From positions 1 through 10,512 of the forward strand of contig JAUYLR010000047.1 in assembly GCA_030698935.1 (NCBI GenBank): 10,512 nt of DNA, written 5' to 3'. The notes under the pieces are model-generated. The model was not told the DNA's origin, made no database searches, and was given only the letters and a program-made list of their open reading frames with translations. Positions 1,199 to 10,256 of the stretch are shown here, piece after piece (within the stretch, counting starts at the first letter, position 1; every line of letters begins with the position of its first letter). A program made the position numbers and the translations under genes. Origin of the DNA: a bacterium (GTDB lineage: Bacteria > Patescibacteriota > Minisyncoccia > Phycocordibacterales > UBA2100).

Positions 1199-1387
1199 AT
1201 TAGGAAAATAAGGAGGGTAGCGACTATATTTTCCTAATCCCGCCCCAATTTTGAAACCACGAATAAATATGCAATACTGTCGTTCCAAAGCAATGTCAGA
1301 ACTCATTGGCAGGGACTGCTGGGGCTCAAAATTGGGGCGGGACATAAGATTTTCTAAGCTCGTTATCACTCACTAACAAAATCTAAT
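1199..1387 (+). repeat. Hairpin element family A, copy A1, fused to the secE start
   Basis: About 189 bp, closely similar to 2253-2441 along its whole length with almost no indels. Three consecutive stems are visible. The first is ATTAGGAAAATA (1199-1210) with TATTTTCCTAAT (1227-1238), whose loop carries AGGAGGG (1211-1217). The second is a 17-bp perfect arm TCCCGCCCCAATTTTGA (1238-1254) with its complement at 1326-1342. The third is AGATTTT (1347-1353) with AAAATCT (1378-1384), extended by GTTA (1362-1365) with TAAC (1374-1377). The last stem ends 3 nt before the secE ATG. Inside the long loop a GCAG/CTGC triloop hairpin is kept in both copies with a different loop (GGA here, AAA in A2). A 35-codon open frame (1269-1376) ends 11 nt before secE. 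No known RNA family or transposase is recognised. Confidence 0.9.
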
Positions 1388-1669
1388 ATGTCCTTCTTTC
1401 AATACCTCAAAGATACGCGCGGTGAACTGCGGCATGTCGCATGGCCTACGCAATTACAGACTATCGTGTATACGGTAATCGTCATTTTGCTCTCGTTCCT
1501 CATTGCGCTGTACCTTGGCCTCTTTGATTACATTTTCACAACGGGATTGAAGAATGTGCTTCAAATACTTCCTGCGCAAAGTGCGCCGGCGGTAACAATC
1601 AGCAACGTCCAACTTTCCACCACCACTCCGGTTTCCGTGCCAAGCGAATCTTCTCCGGCTACACAGTAA
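1388..1669 (+). CDS. secE: Preprotein translocase subunit SecE
   Basis: Essential small subunit that clamps SecY in the SecYEG protein-conducting channel of the cytoplasmic membrane. The protein has 93 residues: a short amphipathic N-terminal region with the typical ELRHVAWPT motif (residues 13-21), then one membrane segment (about 26-46), as expected for the single-span bacterial form. After the membrane segment comes an unusually long tail of about 40 residues rich in Ser, Thr, Pro and Val (residues 60-93); usual single-span SecE ends soon after the helix. It is followed by nusG after 41 nt, the near-universal secE-nusG order. The ATG is fused to element A1 and has no Shine-Dalgarno sequence; the reading starts exactly where SecE homologues start, so the start is secure. 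Confidence 0.93.
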   Translation: MSFFQYLKDTRGELRHVAWPTQLQTIVYTVIVILLSFLIALYLGLFDYIFTTGLKNVLQILPAQSAPAVTISNVQLSTTTPVSVPSESSPATQ

Positions 1670-1672
1670 TTT

Positions 1673-1703
1673 CCTGACACCTATAACCTAACACCTGTCA
1701 CCT
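1673..1703. repeat. Short CACCT repeats between secE and nusG
   Basis: ACACCT at 1677-1682 and 1691-1696 and TCACCT at 1698-1703, within a CCTGACACCT..ACACCTGTCACCT stretch filling most of the secE-nusG gap. It takes the place where a ribosome-binding site would be expected and contains none. Function unknown; possibly simple-sequence slippage. Confidence 0.5.
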
Positions 1704-1710
1704 GATTTAT

Positions 1711-2256
1711 ATGTCAAAACAAACACACGGTTCCGAGCGTCAATGGTATGCAATCCACACATATTCCGGCTACGAAGATGCGGTTGCCCGCAACTTGAAA
1801 CAGCGGATTGACTCGTTCGGAATGAAAGACAAGATTTTCGCCGTCGTGGTGCCTACGGAAAAGAAAATAAAAATTAAAAATGGCCGCAAAACGGAAGCGA
1901 AAGAGAAGATTTTCCCCGGCTATGTGCTCGTAGACATGGTCGCGACCGATGACGCATGGAGCGTCGTTCGCAACACCCCGCAGGTTACCGGATTTGTCGG
2001 CACCGCCAATCAGGCCGTCCCCCTCACGCCGGAAGAAGTAGAAAAGATATTGAAACGCAACGAGGGCGACACTGTGCGGCATGCGATTGATCTTGCGCTT
2101 GACGACGCCGTCATAATCATTGACGGACCGTTCAAGGATTTGGAAGGGAAGGTTGGCGAGATTGACGAAGAGCGTGGAAAGGTTAAGGTGTTAGTTCCGA
2201 TGTTCGGCCGCGAGACTCCGGTTGAATTGGAAGCCGACCAGGTGCAACGCGTTTAG
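1711..2256 (+). CDS. nusG: Transcription termination/antitermination factor NusG
   Basis: Binds the RNA polymerase clamp to raise processivity and links it to Rho or to the leading ribosome. The protein has 181 residues, normal for bacteria. The NGN domain opens with WYAIHTYSGYED (residues 12-23) and contains FPGYVLVDM (68-76) and NTPQVTGFVG (88-97). The KOW domain at the C terminus holds the GPFKDLEGKVGEID signature (about 139-152). The gene lies between secE and rplK, the classical order. The ATG follows ACCTGATTTAT, with no Shine-Dalgarno sequence. Its TAG stop lies at the first bases of repeat copy A2, so the gene ends exactly where the element begins. No unusual insertions. Confidence 0.97.
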   Translation: MSKQTHGSERQWYAIHTYSGYEDAVARNLKQRIDSFGMKDKIFAVVVPTEKKIKIKNGRKTEAKEKIFPGYVLVDMVATDDAWSVVRNTPQVTGFVGTANQAVPLTPEEVEKILKRNEGDTVRHAIDLALDDAVIIIDGPFKDLEGKVGEIDEERGKVKVLVPMFGRETPVELEADQVQRV

Positions 2257-2441
2257 AAAAATAAGGAGCGAAGCGACTATATTTTGCTTAATCCCGCTCC
2301 AATTTTGAAACTTTGAATAAATATGCAATACTGCCGTTTCCAAGCACAGCCAGAACTCATTGGCAGAAACTGCTGGAACTCAAAATTGGGGCGGGATGTA
2401 AGATTTTCTAATCTCGTTAGCACTCGATAACAAAATCTAAC
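2253..2441 (+). repeat. Hairpin element family A, copy A2, fused to the rplK start
   Basis: Second copy of the element at 1199-1387, occupying all of the nusG-rplK gap. The long arm TCCCGCTCCAATTTTGA (2292-2308) pairs with 2380-2396. The one base that differs from A1 (T2298 opposite G2390) becomes a G-U pair in a + strand RNA, so the stem is kept. The terminal hairpin AGATTTT (2401-2407) with AAAATCT (2432-2438), plus GTTA (2416-2419) with TAAC (2428-2431), again ends 3 nt before the ATG. The first stem is weaker than in A1 (AAAATA 2258-2263 with TATTTT 2280-2285, plus scattered pairs). The 35-codon open frame is retained at 2323-2430, stopping 11 nt before rplK. Confidence 0.9.
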
Positions 2442-2864
2442 ATGGCCAAACAAGTAACAAAAATCATAAAGCTGCAGATTCCGGCGGGTGCCGCAACGCC
2501 TGCGCCGCCGGTCGGCACCGCACTGGGGCCCGCGGGCGTGAACATCGGCGAATTCGTCAACCAGTTCAACACGAAGACAAAGGCGCAGGCGGGGAGTATT
2601 CTGCCGGTTTTAATGAAGGTCTACAGCGACCGCACCTTTGATTTTATCGTCAAAAAGCCGCCTGCATCACGCCTCATTCTCAAAGCCGCTGGACTGGAAA
2701 AGGGTTCCGATAAGCCGCACTCCAACAAAGTCGGGAAGCTCACAGGGAAGCAAGTGGAAGACATCGCCACGGAAAAGATGGAAGATTTGAACGCAAACGG
2801 CATGGAACAGGCGAAGAAAATAATCGCCGGCACGGCCCGCTCAATGGGTATAACCACCGAGTAG
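2442..2864 (+). CDS. rplK: 50S ribosomal protein L11
   Basis: Component of the GTPase-associated stalk base of the large subunit, binding 23S rRNA with its C-terminal domain. The protein has 140 residues, normal length. The N-terminal domain carries the proline-rich APPVGTALG segment (21-29); C-terminal [13 protein letters not shown] matches the L11 signature. Position 26 is Thr where PPVGPALG is the usual bacterial form, and the FC of the usual NI.EFC motif is FV. Prolines of this segment are known sites of thiopeptide-resistance substitutions, so the change may matter for drug sensitivity (inference). rplA, the usual next gene, is absent: lysA comes tail to tail 2 nt later. The ATG is fused to element A2 with no Shine-Dalgarno sequence. 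Confidence 0.97.
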
Positions 2865-2866
2865 CT

Positions 2867-4102
2867 TTAAAACTTCAGCGTCGCGAAATAATCCTCTCCT
2901 GTTTCCGCTCTGCGGATCATCCTGAATTCTCCCGTGGGCGACAGCAGGAATTCCGCCGAACGTAGTTTGCCGTTGTAGTTAAAACCCATCGCGTGGCCGT
3001 GCGCTCCCGCGTCGTGGAGTACCACAACATCTCCGGCTGCAATTGCGGGCAATTTCCGGTCAATCGCGAATTTGTCGTTGTTTTCACAAAGTGAACCGAC
3101 CACGTCATACGTCGTATCTTCCGGCGCACCTTCTTTCCCCAGAACGGTGATGTGGTGGTACGCTCCGTACATTGCCGGCCGCATCAGATTTGCCATGCAC
3201 GCGTCTAACCCCGCGTATTTCTTATACGTTTCTTTGACGTGGCGGACGGCAGAAACGAGGTAGCCGTGGGGCCCCGTAATGTAGCGCCCGTATTCTGTGT
3301 ATATTTTCAACGCAGGCATCAGATTTTTCGCTACCGCGTCTTCGTAGAGTTTGCGAATGCGCGCCGAGACCGCCCCGATATCCACTGCCCGCTCATCTGG
3401 TTTGTAGGGAATGCCAAGCCCGCCGCCGAGGTTGATGAATTCAAGCTCCACTCCCGCGTTCTCGCGAATTTCATGCGCGAGCGCAAAGAGCATACGCGCC
3501 GTCTCCACAAAATACTCCTCCCGCAGTTCGTTTGAAGCCACCATGGTGTGCAGGCCGAAACGCTTCACGCCTTTTTGTTTGGCGATTTTGTACGATTCAA
3601 TGATTTGCTCTTTTGTCATTCCGAACTTCGCTTCTTTCGGGTTGCCGATGATTGCATTTCCTCCGCGCAGCGGCCCCGGATTGTAGCGAAAAGAAAGAAT
3701 CTCCGGCAGCCCCGCGTGTTTCTCCAGAAACTCAATGTGGCGTACGTCATCCAGATTGATGATTGCACCGAGCTCGCGCGCTTTTTTGAACTCATCCCTA
3801 GGCGTGTCGTTGGAGGTAAACATAATGTTCTCGCCCGTGATGCCCGCGCGCTCCGCAAGTTCCAGTTCCGGCAGGGAACTGCAATCGGCGCCGGACCCCT
3901 CTTCTTTTAGAATCCCAAGGATGGCCGGATTTGGCGTGGCTTTAACCGCAAAATACTGCTTAAAACCTTTATTCCACGAGAAGCCCGCGACAATATCGCG
4001 CGCGGTCTGCCGTATGCCGGTTTCGTTGTAGATGTAGAAAGGCGTAGGGTATTTTGTAATGAGCCCCTCAATTTGCTCTTTTGTGAACGGCAATGTTTTC
4101 AC
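2867..4102 (-). CDS. lysA: Diaminopimelate decarboxylase
   Basis: Last step of lysine synthesis: PLP-dependent decarboxylation of meso-diaminopimelate. I place the start at GTG 4102-4100 (411 residues), because MKTLPFTKEQ fits the family N terminus and the 10256 gene starts MKT at the same place of the same element type. An in-frame ATG at 4147 would add 15 residues made wholly of element B1. Numbering from that ATG: PLP lysine in YFAVKATPNP (K69), HTMVASNEL (200-208), phosphate-binding GGGLGIPY (241-248), EYGRY (285-289), MRPAMYGAYH (322-331), GSLCENND with Cys354, and GFNYNGKLRSAEFL near the end. EYGR replaces the usual EPGR and GSLCEN the usual GP.CES, so this is a divergent subgroup. Last gene of the minus-strand lysine cluster, tail to tail with rplK with no terminator between. 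Confidence 0.93.
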   Translation of the reverse strand: MKTLPFTKEQIEGLITKYPTPFYIYNETGIRQTARDIVAGFSWNKGFKQYFAVKATPNPAILGILKEEGSGADCSSLPELELAERAGITGENIMFTSNDTPRDEFKKARELGAIINLDDVRHIEFLEKHAGLPEILSFRYNPGPLRGGNAIIGNPKEAKFGMTKEQIIESYKIAKQKGVKRFGLHTMVASNELREEYFVETARMLFALAHEIRENAGVELEFINLGGGLGIPYKPDERAVDIGAVSARIRKLYEDAVAKNLMPALKIYTEYGRYITGPHGYLVSAVRHVKETYKKYAGLDACMANLMRPAMYGAYHHITVLGKEGAPEDTTYDVVGSLCENNDKFAIDRKLPAIAAGDVVVLHDAGAHGHAMGFNYNGKLRSAEFLLSPTGEFRMIRRAETGEDYFATLKF

Positions 4103-4221
4103 CCCGTTAGAGGCAGGACGCAGTCGTGTCGTTGATTGTGAAGTCATAAAGATTCAGTATTGTAATGGAAGTTGGTAAGTGGTCCGATGTTGTGGTGCGC
4201 GACCGCGGCCTCTAACGGGGT
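4101..4221 (-). repeat. Hairpin element family B, copy B1, before lysA
   Basis: 121 bp bounded by perfect 14-bp arms: ACCCCGTTAGAGGC (4101-4114) and its complement at 4208-4221. In the minus-strand RNA, an inner 8-bp stem (CGCGGTCG on the 5' side) follows after a bulge; here one pair is G-U where copy B2 has a Watson-Crick pair. It is closely similar to B2 at both ends; the middle has diverged. The 5' end lies 12 nt after the dapL stop and the 3' end contains the GTG proposed as the lysA start. A further ATG (4147) and 15 in-frame codons lie within it. Confidence 0.88.
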
Positions 4222-4233
4222 TCATAAGCATAT

Positions 4234-5430
4234 TCATTGGTTACCGAAGTTTTCCCGTATTGAATTAACCGCTTTTTCAATATCTTCTCTGTGCCCGAAC
4301 GCCGACACCCGCATGTAACCCTCTCCGTTTTCTCCGAACACGACCCCCGGTGTCGTAATAACGCGCGCTTTCGTTAAGAGTTCATCAAAGCATTCCCACG
4401 AAGAAAGGCCTTGCGGGCACCGGAGCCAGATGTAGGGGGCATTCTCACCCCCGTAGAGAGTAAATCCGGCGGATTTCAGTCCCTCACGTATGATACGCGC
4501 ATTTTCCATGTAGTAATCCACCTGTCCGTGCGTTTGTTTCTGGCCTAGGGCGGACAGAACCGCGAGGCCTCCTTCCTGCGCGATATTTGAGGCACCGTTA
4601 AACATCGTGGTTTGCCGCCTGTTCCAAAATTGGTTCAAGGTTCCCGTATCGCCGTCCTCGGTTTGCAGTTCTTTCGGTACGATAGTCCAGCCGAGGCGCA
4701 CCCCCGTGAATCCCGCCGCCTTGGAGAGGCTCTGAATCTCTATGGCGCACGACTTCGCGCCTTCTGTCTCGTAGATGCTTCTGGGCAGTTTGGGGTCGCG
4801 GACATATTCCGAATACGCGGCATCAAAAATGATTATTGCCTTGTGTTTTCTCGCGTACACGACATATGACTCCAGCTGTTCTTTCGTTGCGACGGTTCCC
4901 GTCGGATTATTCGGACTGCAGATATATATCAAGTCCGCTTTTTCTTTCGGTATCACCGGCAGGAAATTATTTTTCTCAGGACATGCCATGGAGACCACGC
5001 GCTTGCCGGAGATTACGCTGGCTTCGCGGTGGACAGGGTAGCCGGGGTCGCTTATCGCCACCACGGCGTCATCAGAAAAGATAGATGTGATGTTGGCGCA
5101 GTCACTTTTTGCCCCGTCGCTCACAAACACATCGGAAGGCTCAATGACGATACCCCGTTTCCCGTACCATTCTGCGATGGCCTGCCGCAATCGCGTGTCG
5201 CCCTGTTCGTCCCCGTATCCCGTGTACGTATCTCTTTTACTCAATTTGTCCACGCCCGCACGAAGGCCTGCAACGACAGAAGGCACGATAGGCTCGGTCG
5301 TGTTGCCGATACCAAGCTTGTACAGCTCAACGCCCGGATGCGAATCAAGGAACGGTTTCGCCCGTTTTGCAATTTCTGTGGAAAAATACCCCTGGGCGAC
5401 TTTGGTGAAGTTGAGGTTGATTTTTGCCAT
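4234..5430 (-). CDS. dapL: LL-diaminopimelate aminotransferase
   Basis: Converts tetrahydrodipicolinate plus glutamate directly to LL-diaminopimelate, replacing the succinylase steps DapD/DapC/DapE. 398 residues, class I/II fold-type I aminotransferase. Seen: YKLGIGNTTEP (37-47), SDGAKSDCAN (104-113), SPNNPTG (172-178), FDAAYSEY with the cofactor-contacting Asp203 and Tyr206, and the PLP lysine in SLSKAAGFTGVRLGW (K237), followed by GEGYMRVSAFG near the end. The SKxxGFTGxR form is typical of DapL rather than of general aspartate aminotransferases. The start lies 3 nt after the dapA stop, so the two genes are translationally coupled; there is no Shine-Dalgarno sequence and no repeat element between them. 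Ends in TGA 12 nt before element B1. Confidence 0.95.
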   Translation of the reverse strand: MAKINLNFTKVAQGYFSTEIAKRAKPFLDSHPGVELYKLGIGNTTEPIVPSVVAGLRAGVDKLSKRDTYTGYGDEQGDTRLRQAIAEWYGKRGIVIEPSDVFVSDGAKSDCANITSIFSDDAVVAISDPGYPVHREASVISGKRVVSMACPEKNNFLPVIPKEKADLIYICSPNNPTGTVATKEQLESYVVYARKHKAIIIFDAAYSEYVRDPKLPRSIYETEGAKSCAIEIQSLSKAAGFTGVRLGWTIVPKELQTEDGDTGTLNQFWNRRQTTMFNGASNIAQEGGLAVLSALGQKQTHGQVDYYMENARIIREGLKSAGFTLYGGENAPYIWLRCPQGLSSWECFDELLTKARVITTPGVVFGENGEGYMRVSAFGHREDIEKAVNSIRENFGNQ

Positions 5431-5433
5431 ACG

Positions 5434-6330
5434 CTATATGAGCCCCAATCCCTGCAGGCATTTTTTCAGTTTCGCTTTGTTTTGGGGCTCCAGTGCGACG
5501 AGCGGCAGGCGGAACGATTCTTGAATCAGTCCCATCATAGAGAGGGCGGTTTTCACGGGAATAGGATTTGATTCAATGAAATTAATATCCATGAGAGGCA
5601 AAAGGCGGCGGTGCAGTTCCTCCGCCCTTTTCCAGTTGCCCGCAAGCGCCTCTTGGCAGAGCTCGGTAAACTCTTTTGGAACTTCGTTTGCGACGACGCT
5701 GATGCATCCGCGGGCTCCGAGCCTCATCGCTTCCAGAGTGATGGCGTCGTCGCCGGAGAGGACAACAAATCCTTTTGGCGCGTCTTTGATGATGTCTCTG
5801 AACTGGTCAATTTTTCCCGCCGCTTCTTTTATGGCGATGACGCCCGGAACCTCTCTGGCGATTCGTACCACGGTCGCGGGAAGCACGTTAGAACCGGTCC
5901 GTGAAGGTACGTTGTAGAGAATGACCGGCAGAGGAACCGCATCCGCAATCGCTTTGTAGTGCGCAACCAGTCCGTTCGGGGTCGGTTTGTTGTAGAACGG
6001 GCTTACGTGCAACAGCCCCACCGCGCCCTGTGCCCGTGCGATTTTTGAGAGTTCAATCGCCCGCGCGGTGTTGTTGGAACCGGCACCCGCGATAACGGGA
6101 ATTTTTCCTGCCACCTCTTTCACGGCGAACTGTATAACTTCGGCGTACTCTTTGTCGTTCAGGGTGACCGCCTCTCCGGTGGAACCGCACACGACGATGC
6201 CGCTCACGCCTCCCGCTACTTGGCGTTTAAGCAACCGTCTGAACGCGGGGAAGTCCACCGCGCCGCTTTTTGTGAACGGCGTAACAATGGCAGTGAGAGC
6301 CCCCTGCAGAATAATTTTGGTCATATCCAT
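5434..6330 (-). CDS. dapA: 4-hydroxy-tetrahydrodipicolinate synthase
   Basis: Condenses pyruvate with aspartate semialdehyde, the branch point to lysine and diaminopimelate. 298 residues, single TIM barrel of normal length. Seen: CGSTGEAVTLND (48-59) with Thr51 (the usual GTTGE reads GSTGE), PFYNKP with Tyr113, VILYNVPSRTG with Tyr139, the Schiff-base lysine K168 in VIAIKEA, and NPIPVKTALSMMGL. All catalytic residues of the family are present. Two starts are possible: ATG at 6330, which touches element C1 directly, or the second ATG at 6324 (MTKIILQG), which overlaps by ATGA the stop of the open frame carried by C1. The second fits DapA homologues slightly better. The following dapL is 3 nt away. 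Confidence 0.95.
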   Translation of the reverse strand: MDMTKIILQGALTAIVTPFTKSGAVDFPAFRRLLKRQVAGGVSGIVVCGSTGEAVTLNDKEYAEVIQFAVKEVAGKIPVIAGAGSNNTARAIELSKIARAQGAVGLLHVSPFYNKPTPNGLVAHYKAIADAVPLPVILYNVPSRTGSNVLPATVVRIAREVPGVIAIKEAAGKIDQFRDIIKDAPKGFVVLSGDDAITLEAMRLGARGCISVVANEVPKEFTELCQEALAGNWKRAEELHRRLLPLMDINFIESNPIPVKTALSMMGLIQESFRLPLVALEPQNKAKLKKCLQGLGLI

Positions 6331-6449
6331 ACACTAAGTTTGCCGTAATTTCGTGCCGAAGCAATTCCAGCGCGGTTAGATATATTCCTCATAGTTGCAA
6401 AGTTATTCACAGTGATTTTATTCATGAGAGGCGACGGCAAACTTAGTGT
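6331..6449 (-). repeat. Hairpin element family C, copy C1, before dapA
   Basis: 119 bp with perfect 16-bp arms: ACACTAAGTTTGCCGT (6331-6346) and its complement at 6434-6449. It matches 7327-7445 along its length with no indel, including the shared interior block CCGCGCTGGAATTGCTTCGG (minus strand). It touches the dapA ATG with no spacer. An open frame on the minus strand (6321-6425, 34 codons) leaves the element and ends in the ATGA that overlaps the second dapA ATG. No transposase and no clear target duplication. Confidence 0.9.
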
Positions 6450-6481
6450 CGGGGTCATATTATTGTATTCCGTGCGCTTTC

Positions 6482-6599
6482 ACCACGTTAGAGGCAGGTC
6501 GCGGTCGTGTGGTTGTTTTTGACATCATAGAGTTTGTAACCTAATCAATATTGTGAGTGATTCGGTGTCGTGTTGCGCGACCGCGGCCTCTAACGTGGT
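6482..6599 (-). repeat. Hairpin element family B, copy B2, overlapping the end of dapB
   Basis: 118 bp with perfect 14-bp arms: ACCACGTTAGAGGC (6482-6495) and its complement at 6586-6599. Against B1 the fourth arm base is A instead of C, and the opposite arm has T instead of G, so the pair is exchanged as a unit. The inner CGCGGTCG/CGACCGCG stem is perfect. The last 19 residues of dapB are read from this element or its edge. After the 3' arm, GTGAAA occurs as in B1, but only a short frame (minus strand 6528-6460, 22 codons) follows, ending 1 nt before another ATG. Element C1 begins 32 nt further on, so two different elements sit in tandem. Confidence 0.88.
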
Positions 6600-7320
6600 T
6601 CATCACGTCATCAAACGTATACAATCCTTTTTTCCCGTTGATGAACTCCGCGGCGAGAATCGCGCCCTGCGCGAAACCCTGCCGGTTGTGTGCCGCATGA
6701 GAGATGGTGACAGCGTCGGCGGGACTGTCAAAAATCACCTCGTGAAATCCGGGGTTCACGCCGCCGCGCACCGATGAGAAATGAAGTTCCTCGGGACGGA
6801 TTTTTCTGTCCAATTTCGCGGTCTGCAGTGTAGTTTTCACCTTAGAATTTTGCAGTATCTCCTCTGCGGTCCGCAGGGCCGTCCCCGACGGACTGTCTTT
6901 TTTTCCGGCATGGTGAATCTCGTGGCCGGACACATCGTACTCTTTAAACGCGGAGAACAATTTCGTGGCATGTGCCACCGCGCGGAAGAAGATGTTCGCT
7001 CCGATAGAGAAGTTTTGCCCGTAAATCAGGCCGATTCCGCTCTCGCGAACTACTTTCTCAACCTCCGGCAAATGTTCCTGCCATCCAGTAGTGCCCACCA
7101 CCAGATTTTTACCCGCTTTTGCCACCGTCCTAATGTCGTTCAGAACTATTTCCGGCGAGGTGAAATCAATGATAACGTCGGCATTTTCGAGCCCCGCCGT
7201 ATCTATCCCGCCCGCAGGCTCTGTGAGGCCGATGACAGAAACATCGTGCACGCCCGCAACGCGAACGAGCCGTTCAATTTCAGTTCCCATATTTCCATGT
7301 CCGAGTAATCCTATGTGCAT
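6541..7320 (-). CDS. dapB: 4-hydroxy-tetrahydrodipicolinate reductase
   Basis: NAD(P)H-dependent reduction to tetrahydrodipicolinate, the substrate of DapL. 259 residues. Rossmann motif LLGHGNMG (5-12), GTTGW (76-80), the catalytic motif EIHHAGKKDSPSGTA (134-148) with the His pair and Lys, then SSVRGGVNPGFHEV (about 182-195). The normal family ending (GLYTFDDVM) is reached at residue 240. The remaining 19 residues, rich in Arg and His (NHVRGRGRATRH...), are encoded by element B2, which appears to have replaced or displaced the original stop. The tail is probably tolerated, as the C terminus lies after the last structural helix (inference). The ATG at 7320 lies 6 nt from element C2, with no Shine-Dalgarno sequence. 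Confidence 0.93.
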   Translation of the reverse strand: MHIGLLGHGNMGTEIERLVRVAGVHDVSVIGLTEPAGGIDTAGLENADVIIDFTSPEIVLNDIRTVAKAGKNLVVGTTGWQEHLPEVEKVVRESGIGLIYGQNFSIGANIFFRAVAHATKLFSAFKEYDVSGHEIHHAGKKDSPSGTALRTAEEILQNSKVKTTLQTAKLDRKIRPEELHFSSVRGGVNPGFHEVIFDSPADAVTISHAAHNRQGFAQGAILAAEFINGKKGLYTFDDVMNHVRGRGRATRHRITHNID

Positions 7321-7326
7321 ACCCGC

Positions 7327-7445
7327 ACACTAAGTGTGCCGTAATTGTGCGCCGAAGCAATTCCAGCGCGGTTAAACATATTTCCAATAGTTATAAATAT
7401 ATTCATAGTGGTTTTGTTCATAAGAGGCGACGGCATACTTAGTGT
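7327..7445 (-). repeat. Hairpin element family C, copy C2, before dapB
   Basis: 119 bp, second copy of C1. Arms ACACTAAGTGTGCCGT (7327-7342) and ACGGCATACTTAGTGT (7430-7445) are complementary except at one position, which is G-T on the + strand (A-C in a minus-strand RNA). After one mismatch the arms extend by four further pairs (CCCG 7322-7325 with CGGG 7447-7450). The element fills nearly all of the lysC-dapB gap. A minus-strand open frame at 7311-7421 (36 codons), in the frame matching that of C1, runs out of the element and overlaps the dapB start by 10 nt. Confidence 0.9.
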
Positions 7446-7457
7446 CCGGGCATACAG

Positions 7458-8807
7458 TCATTTGTTCAGAAACGTGTCGTGTACCATGTTAGCCGCCCGC
7501 ACGACGTCAGTCGCGGGTATGACCAAACTGATGTTGATGTCTGATGCCCCCATAGAAATCATCCGCAGGGGTATTCTGTGCTTGCTGAACCGTGCGGATA
7601 CGTCTCTCATTATATCCTGCGCGGATGCGATTCCCTCGCCGATGAGCGATATCATGCCGAAGCTGTCTTTATGCACTCCGACTTTTGAGAATGTCCCCAG
7701 TTCTTTGACTGCCGTCTCAAGGTGACCGTTGCTATTATCCAACGTAACCGAAACGCTGACCTCGGAGACCGAGACCAAATCAATGGAAATCTGATGCCGT
7801 GCGAATATCTCAAACATACGCGCGAGGAATCCGCGGGAGAAGAGCATTGAGTCCGAATAGACATTGACAAGCACCACGTCTTTTTTGAAGGCGATAGCTT
7901 TCAATCCGGTGCCCGTAGAACGCGGGCTGACAAGGGTGCCCGGCGCTTTGAGATTAAACGTATTCAACACGCGCACCGGAATATTTCTCTCAACGGCAGG
8001 CCTGATGGTCCTCGGGTGGAGGACTTTCGCGCCGAAAGCGGCCATTTCGGATGCTTCGCGATACGAAATATCCGAAATGATGCGCGCGTTTTTGACAACG
8101 CGCGGGTCGGCGGTAAAGATGCCGTCCACATCGGTCCATATCTGAATTTCTTTTGCACCAAGCGAGCGCCCCAGAATGGATGCGGAGTAATCGGAGCCAC
8201 CGCGGCCGAGCGTTGTCGTGCGGCCGTCTGGAGCACAGCCGAGAAATCCCGTAACAACCGGCACGATTCCTTTCCGGATGAGCGGAACGATTATTTTCCG
8301 CGCGTTTTTTTCCGTTTCTTTCGGAAGGAATTCCGCCTGTATGAAATTATCATCGGTGGCGACTATCTCCGTTGAAATAACCTGCGCGGAATCAATGCCG
8401 TGCGCCCGCAGGGCATGAGAAATCATATACGACGACATAATTTCTCCCGAAGACACAAGCACGTCCATTTTCTCCGGAGAGAATCTTCCTTTGCGCGCGA
8501 GCGCTTCCGTTTTTGCGAGCTGTGCATCAACGTACCCGAGGATATCCGACACTGTCTCGGCGGGGAACAGCGCAGTAGCTAATGCCTCGTGCGTTGCACG
8601 GATGGCCGAAATATGGCTCGGAATCTGTGCTTTTGGGCATTTAGCAAGCGCGAGAAGCGCCTCGGTGACGCCGCGTATGGCCGACACGACGACCACCGGT
8701 CGCGATGTGCGGTGGCGTTTCACTATCGCGACAATCGCGAGAACCGCCTCTTTGGTTGCGACAGAAGTGCCTCCGAATTTTATTATGATATTAGGAACGT
8801 GTGCCAT
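7458..8807 (-). CDS. lysC: Aspartate kinase, LysC (AKIII-like)
   Basis: Phosphorylates aspartate, the first committed step. 449 residues, the same length as E. coli LysC. Kinase domain: IIKFGGTSVA (8-17), TLGRGGSDYSAS (199-210), IWTDVDGIFTADPRVV (223-238), EMAAFGAKVLHPRT (254-267). Two ACT domains follow: SMLFSRGFLARMFEIFARHQ (320-339) with SEVSVSVTLD (348-357), and MISLIGEGIA onward. Met321, Ser324, Phe327 and Leu328 align with the lysine-site residues of the lysine-inhibited E. coli enzyme (Met318, Ser321, Phe324, Leu325), so lysine feedback is likely (inference). The ATG at 8807 lies 1 nt after the asd stop and gives MAHVPNIIIKFGG, matching the family start. The frame stays open 33 codons upstream, but that overlaps asd. 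Confidence 0.95.
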   Translation of the reverse strand: MAHVPNIIIKFGGTSVATKEAVLAIVAIVKRHRTSRPVVVVSAIRGVTEALLALAKCPKAQIPSHISAIRATHEALATALFPAETVSDILGYVDAQLAKTEALARKGRFSPEKMDVLVSSGEIMSSYMISHALRAHGIDSAQVISTEIVATDDNFIQAEFLPKETEKNARKIIVPLIRKGIVPVVTGFLGCAPDGRTTTLGRGGSDYSASILGRSLGAKEIQIWTDVDGIFTADPRVVKNARIISDISYREASEMAAFGAKVLHPRTIRPAVERNIPVRVLNTFNLKAPGTLVSPRSTGTGLKAIAFKKDVVLVNVYSDSMLFSRGFLARMFEIFARHQISIDLVSVSEVSVSVTLDNSNGHLETAVKELGTFSKVGVHKDSFGMISLIGEGIASAQDIMRDVSARFSKHRIPLRMISMGASDINISLVIPATDVVRAANMVHDTFLNK

Positions 8808-8808
8808 A

Positions 8809-9912
8809 TTATTGCGCGCGCAAGTAGCCTTTGGCTTTGAGAAGTTCCGCCACGAGCACCGCTCCGCCCGCGGCGCCCCGAATGGTGTTGTGAGAAAGGG
8901 CAACAAATTTCCATCCCAATACGGCGTCTTCCCGCAATCTGCCGATGCTTATTCCCATGCCGTGCCCGATGTCGCGGTCCAGTTTTGTCTGCGGGCGGTT
9001 GTCTTCCTCAAAATATGTAATGAATTTTTGCGGCGCTGAAGGGAGGCCGAGGCCCTCAAGGGGGCTTTCAAATTCGCGCCAGCATTTCAGAATCGCATCC
9101 CGAGCCGGTTTCGTTTTGAACGAGACAGCGACGGAAGCCATGTGACCATCGGCAACGGGAACTCTGATGCACGTGGCGGAGATTTTTGGTGTCGTTGCAA
9201 GCACGAACGCGCCGTTTTCAATCCGCCCCCATATTTTCATCGGTTCTTTCTCCGATTTTTCCTCCTCGCCCCCGATGAAGGGGATGACGTTGTCCAGTAT
9301 TTCAGGCATTGTTTCAAAGGTTTTTCCCGCGCCGGAAATGGCCTGCAGGGTTGAGACGATTACTTCCTGCGGACCGAATTCTTTAAGCGCCTCAAGCGCG
9401 GGAATGTATGACTGAACGGAGCAGTTCGGTTTGACGACAATGAATCCCGCATCCCACCCGCGGTTTTTCTGCTGAATCGGAATCATGGCGAGGTGGTCCG
9501 CATTTATCTCCGGCATAATCATCGGCACATCCGCCGTCCAGCGGTGGGCGGAGTTGTTGGAAACCACCGGCACGCCGCGCGACGCGTACAGCTCCTCCAA
9601 CGCGCGTATATCTTCTTTCTCCATGTCCATCGCGCTGAACACAAAATCCACATGGGCTTGTATTTTCTCCACGTCATCCTCAACTGAAAGTACGACGAGG
9701 TCGCGCGTGCCCGCGGGAATAGGGGTGGAGTATTTCCATCGGCCCAGAACCGCTTCCGCGTATGTTTTTCCTGCGGACTGTCTTGAAGCCGCGACCGCGC
9801 GCACTTCAAACCACGGATGGTTTTCAAGCAGTTGAACAAATCTCTGTCCGACCATGCCGGTTGCACCCAAGATGCCAACCGAGAGTTTTTGTGATGATGT
9901 AGATTTAGCCAT
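8809..9912 (-). CDS. asd: Aspartate-semialdehyde dehydrogenase, archaeal/fungal type
   Basis: NADPH-dependent reduction of aspartyl phosphate to aspartate semialdehyde. 367 residues. NADP-binding GILGATGMVGQRF (13-25); catalytic cysteine in KPNCSVQ (C164), reading PNCS where many bacterial enzymes read PNC(S)T; substrate Arg250 and catalytic His257 in CIRVPVADGHMASV; and the C-terminal block ISIGRLREDAVLGWKFVALSHNTIRGAAGGAV typical, in shorter pieces, of the archaeal and fungal branch. First gene of the minus-strand lysine cluster, 1 nt from lysC. An extended -10 promoter lies about 50 nt upstream. No Shine-Dalgarno sequence precedes the ATG, and no repeat element lies between promoter and start. 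Confidence 0.95.
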   Translation of the reverse strand: MAKSTSSQKLSVGILGATGMVGQRFVQLLENHPWFEVRAVAASRQSAGKTYAEAVLGRWKYSTPIPAGTRDLVVLSVEDDVEKIQAHVDFVFSAMDMEKEDIRALEELYASRGVPVVSNNSAHRWTADVPMIMPEINADHLAMIPIQQKNRGWDAGFIVVKPNCSVQSYIPALEALKEFGPQEVIVSTLQAISGAGKTFETMPEILDNVIPFIGGEEEKSEKEPMKIWGRIENGAFVLATTPKISATCIRVPVADGHMASVAVSFKTKPARDAILKCWREFESPLEGLGLPSAPQKFITYFEEDNRPQTKLDRDIGHGMGISIGRLREDAVLGWKFVALSHNTIRGAAGGAVLVAELLKAKGYLRAQ

Positions 9913-9961
9913 ACATTAATTGCTTATGGTAACCGAGAGGTAATAATGTGCCTACGCAGGC

Positions 9962-9970
9962 ATTATAACA
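9962..9970 (-). promoter_or_regulatory. Extended -10 promoter for the lysine cluster
   Basis: On the minus strand TGTTATAAT, a perfect extended -10 (TGN-TATAAT; hexamer at 9962-9967). The -35 region is weak: TGTCAA at an 18-nt spacing, which is the complement of the + strand TTGACA at 9986-9991, so the two divergent promoters share bases. Transcription would begin near 9955 within GCCTACGCAGGC, a small inverted repeat (9950-9961), leaving a leader of about 40 nt. No lysine riboswitch fits in it. Confidence 0.65.
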
Positions 9971-9985
9971 AGTTTTTGGGGAATA

Positions 9986-10014
9986 TTGACAGAATTGTAC
10001 CAGTTTGTTATGAT
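9986..10014 (+). promoter_or_regulatory. Near-consensus sigma70 promoter for the gene at 10256
   Basis: TTGACA (9986-9991), exactly 17 nt, then TATGAT (10009-10014) preceded by TGT, an extended -10. This is the best promoter in the window. Transcription would start at about 10021, so the message begins just before element B3 and carries it whole as its leader, roughly 235 nt. Confidence 0.8.
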
Positions 10015-10028
10015 TATAACAATACCCG

Positions 10029-10256
10029 TCCCGTTAGAGGCCGCGGAAGACAAATTTTCTTTATGTCACATTTAAGTCGCGTATCAATGAGGTCGATCAG
10101 TAGCAATATATCTAGGTCGGGAAGCTTTGCTTCCTGCCTGCCCGCCAAAGCCAGAGCTGAGTCAGCGGTATTGGCAACAGACACTAGATATTTATTAGTT
10201 AATCAAGCTCGTTACTATCGCGCTTTCAGGCGATGGCAGGCGGGCCTCTAACGGGA
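10029..10256 (+). repeat. Hairpin element family B, copy B3, forming the leader of the 10256 gene
   Basis: 228 bp with perfect 14-bp arms TCCCGTTAGAGGCC (10029-10042) and 10243-10256. It shares GTTAGAGGCCGCGG and CCTCTAACGGG-TGAAA with B1 and B2, but the interior is different and longer. Its orientation is reversed relative to B1 and B2, following the gene. The interior holds a perfect hairpin GGAAGC-TTT-GCTTCC (10120-10134), an 8-bp inverted repeat ATATCTAG (10108-10115) with 10184-10191, GCCTGCC (10136-10142) with GGCAGGC (10235-10241), and ATCGC (10217-10221) with GCGAT (10230-10234). The last base of the arm is the A of the downstream ATG. With the promoters this accounts for the 343-nt gap 9913-10255. 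Confidence 0.88.

Follow-up and report, generated by a model that had tools for sequence, protein, structure and literature searches.

Foldback elements in Patescibacteria that probably rebuild the start codons at which they insert

Seven hairpin-bounded elements in a lysine biosynthesis and secE-nusG-rplK region

The DNA studied here, called the window (10,512 nt, contig JAUYLR010000047.1 of assembly GCA_030698935.1), is one contig of the 111-contig, 678,695-base genome of a bacterium of the Patescibacteriota. It carries secE, nusG, rplK, lysA, dapL, dapA, dapB, lysC and asd, all confirmed by NCBIfam models, and a gene starting at 10256 with no match in NCBIfam or Pfam. A previous inspection of the letters alone (the sequence-only reading) had described seven hairpin-bounded elements among these genes. 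All seven were located, with exact or near-exact arms, and fall into three families, A (two copies), B (three) and C (two) (Table 1). Their adjacency to a start codon proved true for secE, rplK, lysA, the gene at 10256, dapA and dapB, and the single exception named at that time, B2, was borne out: it comes after dapB, without direct contact to the start of a long gene, and only a short open reading frame (ORF) starts from its junction GTG, stopping just before the ATG upstream of C1. The dapB reading frame extends into B2. The statement that the families share no sequence needs one qualification, as the B ends, the C ends and the ends of the A inner repeats all start with (T)CCC.

The two A copies are 85% identical over 165 nt, and each ends 1 nt upstream of an ATG, that of secE (1388) for A1 and that of rplK (2442) for A2; the opening bases of A2, TTAG, supply the nusG stop. 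Inside B1 an in-frame ATG lies 45 nt upstream of the rebuilt lysA GTG. C1 and C2 are 83% identical over 133 nt; the dapA start lies within or beside the downstream TATGA copy of C1, and the downstream TATG copy of C2 contains the dapB ATG (7320-7318). Six of the elements, A1 standing outside the set, were folded as RNA, and each was more stable than all of its 200 shuffles, with z scores of -4.4 to -6.6 for B1, B2, C1 and C2, -5.7 for B3 and -3.3 for A2.

Table 1. Positions of the elements and of the B target duplications in the window
Feature	Position	Strand	Description
A1	1199..1387	+	End hairpins ~1200-1238 and ~1346-1386 flank inner inverted repeat 1238-1254 / 1326-1342
A2	2253..2441	+	Layout as A1; inner repeat 2291-2308 / 2380-2397
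B1	4102..4220	-	119 nt, C..G ends; lysA start rebuilt as GTG
B1 target duplication, lysA side	4098..4101	-	TGAA
B1 target duplication, upstream copy	4221..4224	-	TGAA (ATGAA)
B2	6483..6598	-	116 nt; outer bases CCA/TGG compensated
B2 target duplication	6479-6482 and 6599-6602		TGAA
B3	10029..10256	+	228 nt, T..A ends, inner insert; final base supplies the A of the 10256 ATG
C1	6326..6454	-	TATGA duplication at 6455-6459 and 6321-6325
C2	7322..7450	-	TATG duplication at 7451-7454 and 7318-7321

Family B carries the marks of insertion at start codons

The ends of B are inverted, [T/C]CCCGTTAGA…TCTAACGGG[A/G], and are mostly enclosed by a 4-bp target duplication. Over 124 distinct pairs of ends the flanks follow one rule: ATGNN precedes the left end, [T/C]CCCGTTAGAGGC, and TGNN follows the right end, GCCTCTAACGGG[A/G]. 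Both TGNN are the target duplication, and the last base of the element, A or G, completes an ATG or a GTG. Counts were made on a strict set of 115 distinct elements (107-133 nt including the outer bases), which excludes copies lying 6 nt or less from a locus end and counts identical copies once. A junction ATG or GTG followed by an ORF of at least 20 codons was present in 94 of them, and in 87 this ORF had at least 40 codons; two of the seven junction ORFs of 20-40 codons are L36 genes, their 37 residues matching the family model over 1-37 of 37.

An exact 4-bp duplication flanks 68 of the 115 copies. One-base slides of the comparison match in 9 and 10 copies, because some duplications are 3 or 5 bp long, and other slides in 0-2. 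Among the 94 start copies the duplication is 4 bp in 56, 5 in 10, 3 in 9 and 2 in 3, and the left start codon is retained in 81; among the 21 non-start copies it is exactly 4 bp in 12. The inner stem gives the element a direction, and the orientation check proposed by the sequence-only reading came out essentially one way, with 62 start copies in sense, one reversed and 31 with other inner sequences (5 sense and 1 reversed among the 21 non-start copies).

Of the 58 sense copies eligible for alignment, 56 were aligned. Pairing of their outer helix holds in 99.9% of cells, with U-A as the terminal pair in 45 copies and C-G in 11. Two-sided changes occur at three pairs of the inner helix, and one inner pair is broken in 11 copies. 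Ten inner bases per arm are fixed by the exact-arm search, the outer bases being largely free. Stems kept with paired changes, together with the same B insertion preceding an orthologous gene in the genomes G018 and G000 and with A at rplK in several relatives (see below), are what old, riboswitch-like leader RNAs would show if they were inherited with their genes and immobile. We regard this as very unlikely, for B in view of the target duplications, the empty site and the nesting described next, the unrelated genes that follow, loops without conserved sequence (mean column identity 59%), and Rfam covariance models, which gave no match at gathering score within the window.

The empty site was found at ddl, in a comparison that covers 16 of 25 ddl loci. 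The element is present in G000, whereas in G048 the same promoter region leads directly into ATGAAGAGT (a single case), and in G019 the same start codon is occupied by a copy whose ends differ (GTTAGAAGC). At locus L234, moreover, one element is inserted exactly into a start codon carried in frame by another element, 39 nt before the end of that host element, and the newcomer brings a GTG with an in-frame ATG 15 nt upstream. Other nested B copies have CAGG duplications. With inverted ends, a short target duplication and an empty site in a relative, B has the features of a miniature inverted-repeat transposable element (MITE) or foldback element, and these comparisons give good support to the view that it is mobile, has moved repeatedly and inserts at start codons. 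The earlier suggestion that the leaders derive from mobile repeats was largely right, as judged by the B target duplication, the nested copies and the one empty site.

An autonomous partner or a transposase with B ends was not found in a search limited to the retrieved loci, so that its absence is not established; long pairs of B ends, considered as a candidate autonomous element, were rejected as coincidences of TGAA. Elements nested in others were also seen at L030, L091, L236, L237 and L239, often at the CAGG of an inner arm. One B copy near a contig end (L028, G000:C90, 8162-8382), which may reflect an assembly artefact, has flanks that are mutually inverted over 60 nt or more.

Distribution of the families and scans of whole contigs

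Further copies of A, B and C were found both in the source genome and in relatives. The source genome holds 4 further near-full copies of A plus fragments, 10 paired copies of B plus one interrupted by a contig end, and 3 further copies of C, one of them diverged. Among 70 genomes of the same taxonomic family, exact B pairs occur in 16, C in 6 and A-like matches in 29. A scan of the GTDB collection gave the B pattern in 110 stretches, and the paired-B genomes with titles (80 of the 110 stretches) are mostly 'Candidatus Kaiserbacteria' and other Patescibacteria; the IMG/VR viral collection, scanned for the B pattern, gave no match. Sorted by record name, B copies are at starts in 40 of 42 cases in Patescibacteria and in none of 7 in other phyla, with 17 of 18 for unnamed bacteria, 22 of 29 for loci without listed titles and 15 of 19 for own-genus searches. 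The copies in other phyla occupy TTGA, TAAA and similar sites, not starts, and one of the seven (Spirosoma) may be a chance match. Copies scattered irrespective of starts, which the sequence-only reading had named as the finding that would speak against it, were thus not found in Patescibacteria, although the seven other-phylum copies do look so. In L137 (Omnitrophota), solitary and tandem-like elements at 474-640 and 4914-4976 have CCCCGTTAGAGGC ends and TAAA flanks, away from starts.

Two contigs were also scanned without regard to context. The whole 376,200-nt contig of the relative G033, with gene starts assigned by a simple longest-ORF rule, has 15 pairs of B ends; one is a spurious overlap, which leaves 14 elements, 11 of them with an exact 4-bp duplication. 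Eight of these 11 form start junctions followed by ORFs 110 to 738 codons long, and the other three lie at TTGA followed by C, that is, at a -35-like TTGAC, with a -10-like hexamer 16-17 nt downstream in all three (one weak, TACCCT). Two 29-bp palindromes inside ORFs and one element without duplication complete the 14. A seed-based de novo repeat scan of this contig gave 5 duplication-bearing pairs, every one with B-type ends, and looser ends (10-mer, one mismatch) added four pairs without duplication (25151, 126613, 140390 and 298204). In the 342,010 nt scanned in G054 there are 12 pairs. Six exceed 45 nt and have a duplication of at least 4 bp: four at starts, one in TGGTATAAT and one unclear (a 56-codon, apparently spurious ORF). 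The remaining six comprise one start copy with a 3-bp duplication, one with TTA only, three with none and one 29-mer.

Such a distribution might arise passively, if insertion occurred anywhere with a mild target preference, if only gene boundaries tolerated the element and if start copies could not be deleted without losing the gene. The coding fraction of the G033 contig, 0.90, would fit this explanation, as would the copies of other phyla away from starts and the short 29-30-bp palindromes, 8 of 10 distinct ones of which lie within ORFs of at least 100 codons, most without duplication. We nevertheless regard it as unlikely. Random hits among tolerated positions would fall on starts in about 1% of cases, or in 8.3% at TGNN and 15.4% at TGAA sites; the observed share is 8 of 11 (binomial probability 3e-5 even at 15.4%), and B lies in one orientation. 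Sequence preference and gene avoidance are insufficient in number to explain B at starts; its place there may reflect either targeting or selection for starts that stay usable.

Host initiation context

On the G033 contig, 192 ATG genes have 150 codons or more. Upstream of 35 of them lies a -10-like hexamer that ends at a distance of exactly 6 nt from the ATG, compared with about 2 of 192 at background offsets, and Shine-Dalgarno-like tetramers occur in 20 of 192 against 16 of 192 in a control stretch, i.e. there is no signal. A -10 box at this distance from the start codon is a signature of leaderless transcripts. The proposal that the elements replace Shine-Dalgarno control is therefore not supported: G033 shows no such signal to replace and has the leaderless signature instead. 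No Shine-Dalgarno-like tetramer precedes the rebuilt start in any of the 94 B start copies, nor does a -10-like hexamer inside B end within 25 nt of it (8 end farther upstream). The leaderless-gene signature was seen on contig C1 of G033 and in the ddl and rplK upstream regions (L260-L305).

At B copies themselves, 34 of 80 left ATGs have the -10 hexamer upstream, ending 6-9 nt away, compared with 54 of 192 genes (p 0.02). For many of the copies, though not for every one, this suggests that the original start codon coincided with the transcription start and that the element begins at about +6. This bears on whether the machinery actively seeks promoters, recognising an open promoter or a -35 box, leaderless transcription starts being start codons. 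The boxes before the left ATGs and the TGGTATAAT site used in G054 point that way, as do the TTGA/TCAA duplications, 8 of 9 of which read on into the -35-like TTGAC, with a 5-of-6 match to the -10 box 15-17 nt downstream in 4 of 9. We find promoter targeting doubtful all the same, since many target starts, including that of lysA in the window, have no visible -10 and the target at L234 was a start codon within another element.

Choice of the translation start at B junctions

Start choice was compared in 91 B start copies of 108-126 nt, which are not all independent as some B loops are related. In 73 of them, with T-starting ends, ATG is rebuilt, and an additional in-frame upstream ATG is present in 9; in the 15 where GTG is rebuilt, 14 have such an in-frame ATG (Fisher p 1.7e-9). 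The other two frames contain an upstream ATG in 0 and 13 of the 73 copies of the ATG class and in 0 and 5 of the 15 of the GTG class. The contig scans, two copies of which also belong to the 115-copy set, gave an inner in-frame ATG in 5 of 5 (G033) and, one unclear copy set aside, 3 of 3 (G054) of the GTG class, and in 1 of 3 and 0 of 2 of the ATG class. The simplest reading is that T..A copies would start translation at the junction ATG and C..G copies in the loop, adding an N-terminal peptide, ...PASNG. Genes at B junctions include gyrA, alaS, L36, S17, aspS, cysteine desulfurase, GAPDH, nusB and ddl, and NCBIfam models agree with the starts (L36 over 1-37 of 37 twice, AlaRS from residue 1, GAPDH and Ddl).

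Because near-identical ATGNN flank a perfect stem and the left start codon is so often kept, the element RNA could be thought to be excised, or skipped by the ribosome, with the original start restored. This is extremely improbable: the inner in-frame ATG of the GTG class would be pointless in an element that is removed, and the frame from left to right start is random (31/25/25). As a general rule for B, coupled translation by way of an ORF that begins at the left ATG was rejected, since the frames are random and the stops scattered.

Families C and A

The arms of C are ACACTAAGTTTGCCGT. An ORF of at least 204 codons starts within 6 nt of the arm in 10 of 12 copies examined, and 11 of the 12 have, by eye, a duplication of at least 4 bp, mostly TATG, CATG or GATG; the two copies away from starts have CTTG and GAAAA. 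With inverted ends and target duplication, C also resembles a foldback element. In eight 119-nt copies one frame is open in 8 of 8 and the others in 0 of 8 and 0 of 8, and 7 of the 8 frames close, by eye, within 10 nt of the next ATG, which makes translational coupling through the C frame possible. The codon-position excess in this frame is weak (p 0.035) and the copies are related; codon changes are mostly non-synonymous (97 synonymous and 425 non-synonymous, compared with 73/449 and 59/461 in the other frames).

A is built differently, of two end hairpins that flank variable inner inverted repeats; the arms of the first hairpin covary between copies, as judged by eye. Over all retrieved loci there are 43 distinct 3' hairpins, and behind 41 of them a start codon whose frame has at least 40 codons or is open comes within 5 nt, mostly at 1 or 3 nt; of the other two, one is an apparent chance match and one has no ATG. 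The claim that copies mark gene starts is thus upheld in all three families (94 of 115 for B).

Between nusG and rplK, an ORF-less full A was found in 5 of 30 loci examined, and in G052 and G049 the end hairpins enclose an 89-codon GIY-YIG gene (PF01541). rplK loci without A occur, but there the entire spacer differs and no duplication was seen. GIY-YIG genes as such are widespread, being present in 46 of 52 of these genomes. Among 30 loci of this GIY-YIG protein, A hairpins surround the gene, or the 3' one follows it, in 5, and these five are the query's closest relatives (73-100% identity), at no fewer than 4 different genes. The ancestor of A was therefore probably an element that encoded a GIY-YIG nuclease, which is a candidate for A mobility. 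Like GIY-YIG homing-endonuclease elements, A can hold a small GIY-YIG ORF between its ends; unlike them, most A copies, including those of the window, are without the nuclease gene, and the site is a gene start, not an intron or intein. The GIY-YIG gene lies between A end hairpins at L272 and L284 (1204-1470 in each) and at L334-L338, candidate full-length forms of A. Upstream of rplK in L273 (G048) there are only the two outermost A-like ends (TTTAGAAAAATAAAAAATCTAACATGG), a remnant or a precursor, and L205 (G001:C14) has two successive A-type elements, at the rpmJ start and at the next gene.

A model for rebuilt gene starts

We consider it likely that B is a non-autonomous foldback (MITE-like) element that rebuilds the start codon and becomes a hairpin leader, as probably is C, A being a distinct element that abuts starts likewise. 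B would insert mostly across the start codon, which the second target copy and the last base of the element then remake; for C, the whole duplicated TATG would remake it. Since the relative G033 has a -10 box at leaderless spacing before many ATGs and no Shine-Dalgarno signal, B would often give a formerly leaderless gene a leader with a 5' hairpin. In such hosts, with their many leaderless promoters, the transcript would begin at or near the old ATG, the element would form a hairpin at the mRNA 5' end with its 3' foot touching the rebuilt AUG, and the ribosome would start there (T..A-ended copies) or at the in-frame AUG of the loop (C..G-ended copies). By placing the 5' end beside the rebuilt AUG, the stem could preserve leaderless-type initiation. 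More tentatively, retained copies may additionally stabilise the mRNA or set its translation.

Several points weigh against this model. Of the 115 B copies, 21 are away from a start junction, and 16 of the 94 start copies lack a duplication of at least 2 bp; B3 in the window has none on its left side (CCCG against TGAA). B arm conservation is partly forced by the exact-arm search, and the G033 starts depend on the simple ORF rule. The unclear GTG-ended copy of G054 lacks an inner ATG and, if included, gives 3 of 4. As only 34 of 80 left ATGs have a -10 box, not every target is leaderless, and lysA in the window closely follows dapL. Finally, the coding-like frame of C is weakly supported.

A broader proposal, which we offer as a conjecture somewhat short of an even chance, is that a transposition system of Patescibacteria aims at start codons or promoters in use (the leaderless transcription start, the -35 box) and that A, B and C have converged on portable gene-start modules. 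If so, the module would be a hairpin plus rebuilt ATG, or a hairpin plus in-frame ATG and N-terminal peptide, and an AUG-touching hairpin foot shared by three unrelated families would point to an initiation context specific to non-Shine-Dalgarno hosts.

In any case, a 115-bp hairpin between promoter and start should silence a gene, and here it is tolerated or favoured, even at housekeeping genes (gyrA, alaS, aspS, L36, S17, GAPDH and ddl). The target rule of this mobile element is legible in the sequence, and its copies are a natural experiment on start-codon choice in Patescibacteria, which in the relative examined show leaderless promoters and no Shine-Dalgarno signal. They are also a warning that automatic start-codon calls may err at element-bearing genes.

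Relation to known systems

A literature search found no account of start-codon-rebuilding MITEs or of leaderless genes in Patescibacteria; papers were also text-searched for four 10-mers of the B ends, and among the matches listed all appear unrelated. The stem-loop leaders of ompA and papA belong to single genes and have the ribosome-binding site downstream of the stem. In B, by contrast, the AUG touches the stem, without a Shine-Dalgarno-like tetramer before it. The likeness lies in the 5'-terminal stem, which in the ompA/papA type is a few nucleotides from the mRNA 5' end, as proposed for B, and is reported to stabilise the mRNA, according to the available text of PMC3997798. By analogy, the B hairpin may have the same role.

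Like bacterial MITEs such as MITEAba12, B is short, (nearly) non-coding and multicopy, with inverted ends and a target duplication. MITEAba12 uses AT-rich targets without sequence trend and makes 9-bp duplications (as far as the available text of PMC6382973 goes), whereas the target of B is the start codon, rebuilt by its last base. MITEs can fuse with genes, as portions of PMC10969869 and PMC6382973 describe; in the text available of the former, a MITE review, the term 'start codon' does not occur.

Rickettsia palindromic elements are also palindromic, compatible with reading frames and found in small-genome bacteria, and they may be likened to the 29-bp forms and N-terminal extensions seen here. 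They fuse within ORFs (PMC10969869, in the portion available), whereas the ~115-bp B copies are at gene starts. The 29-30-bp palindromes, which consist of two B ends, were seen at G033:C1 157662-157690 (L227) and 307686-307714 and at L221-L226, L228 and L239; 29 bp plus a 4-bp duplication would preserve the frame and encode PVRGxASNG, a compatibility with coding like that of the Rickettsia elements.

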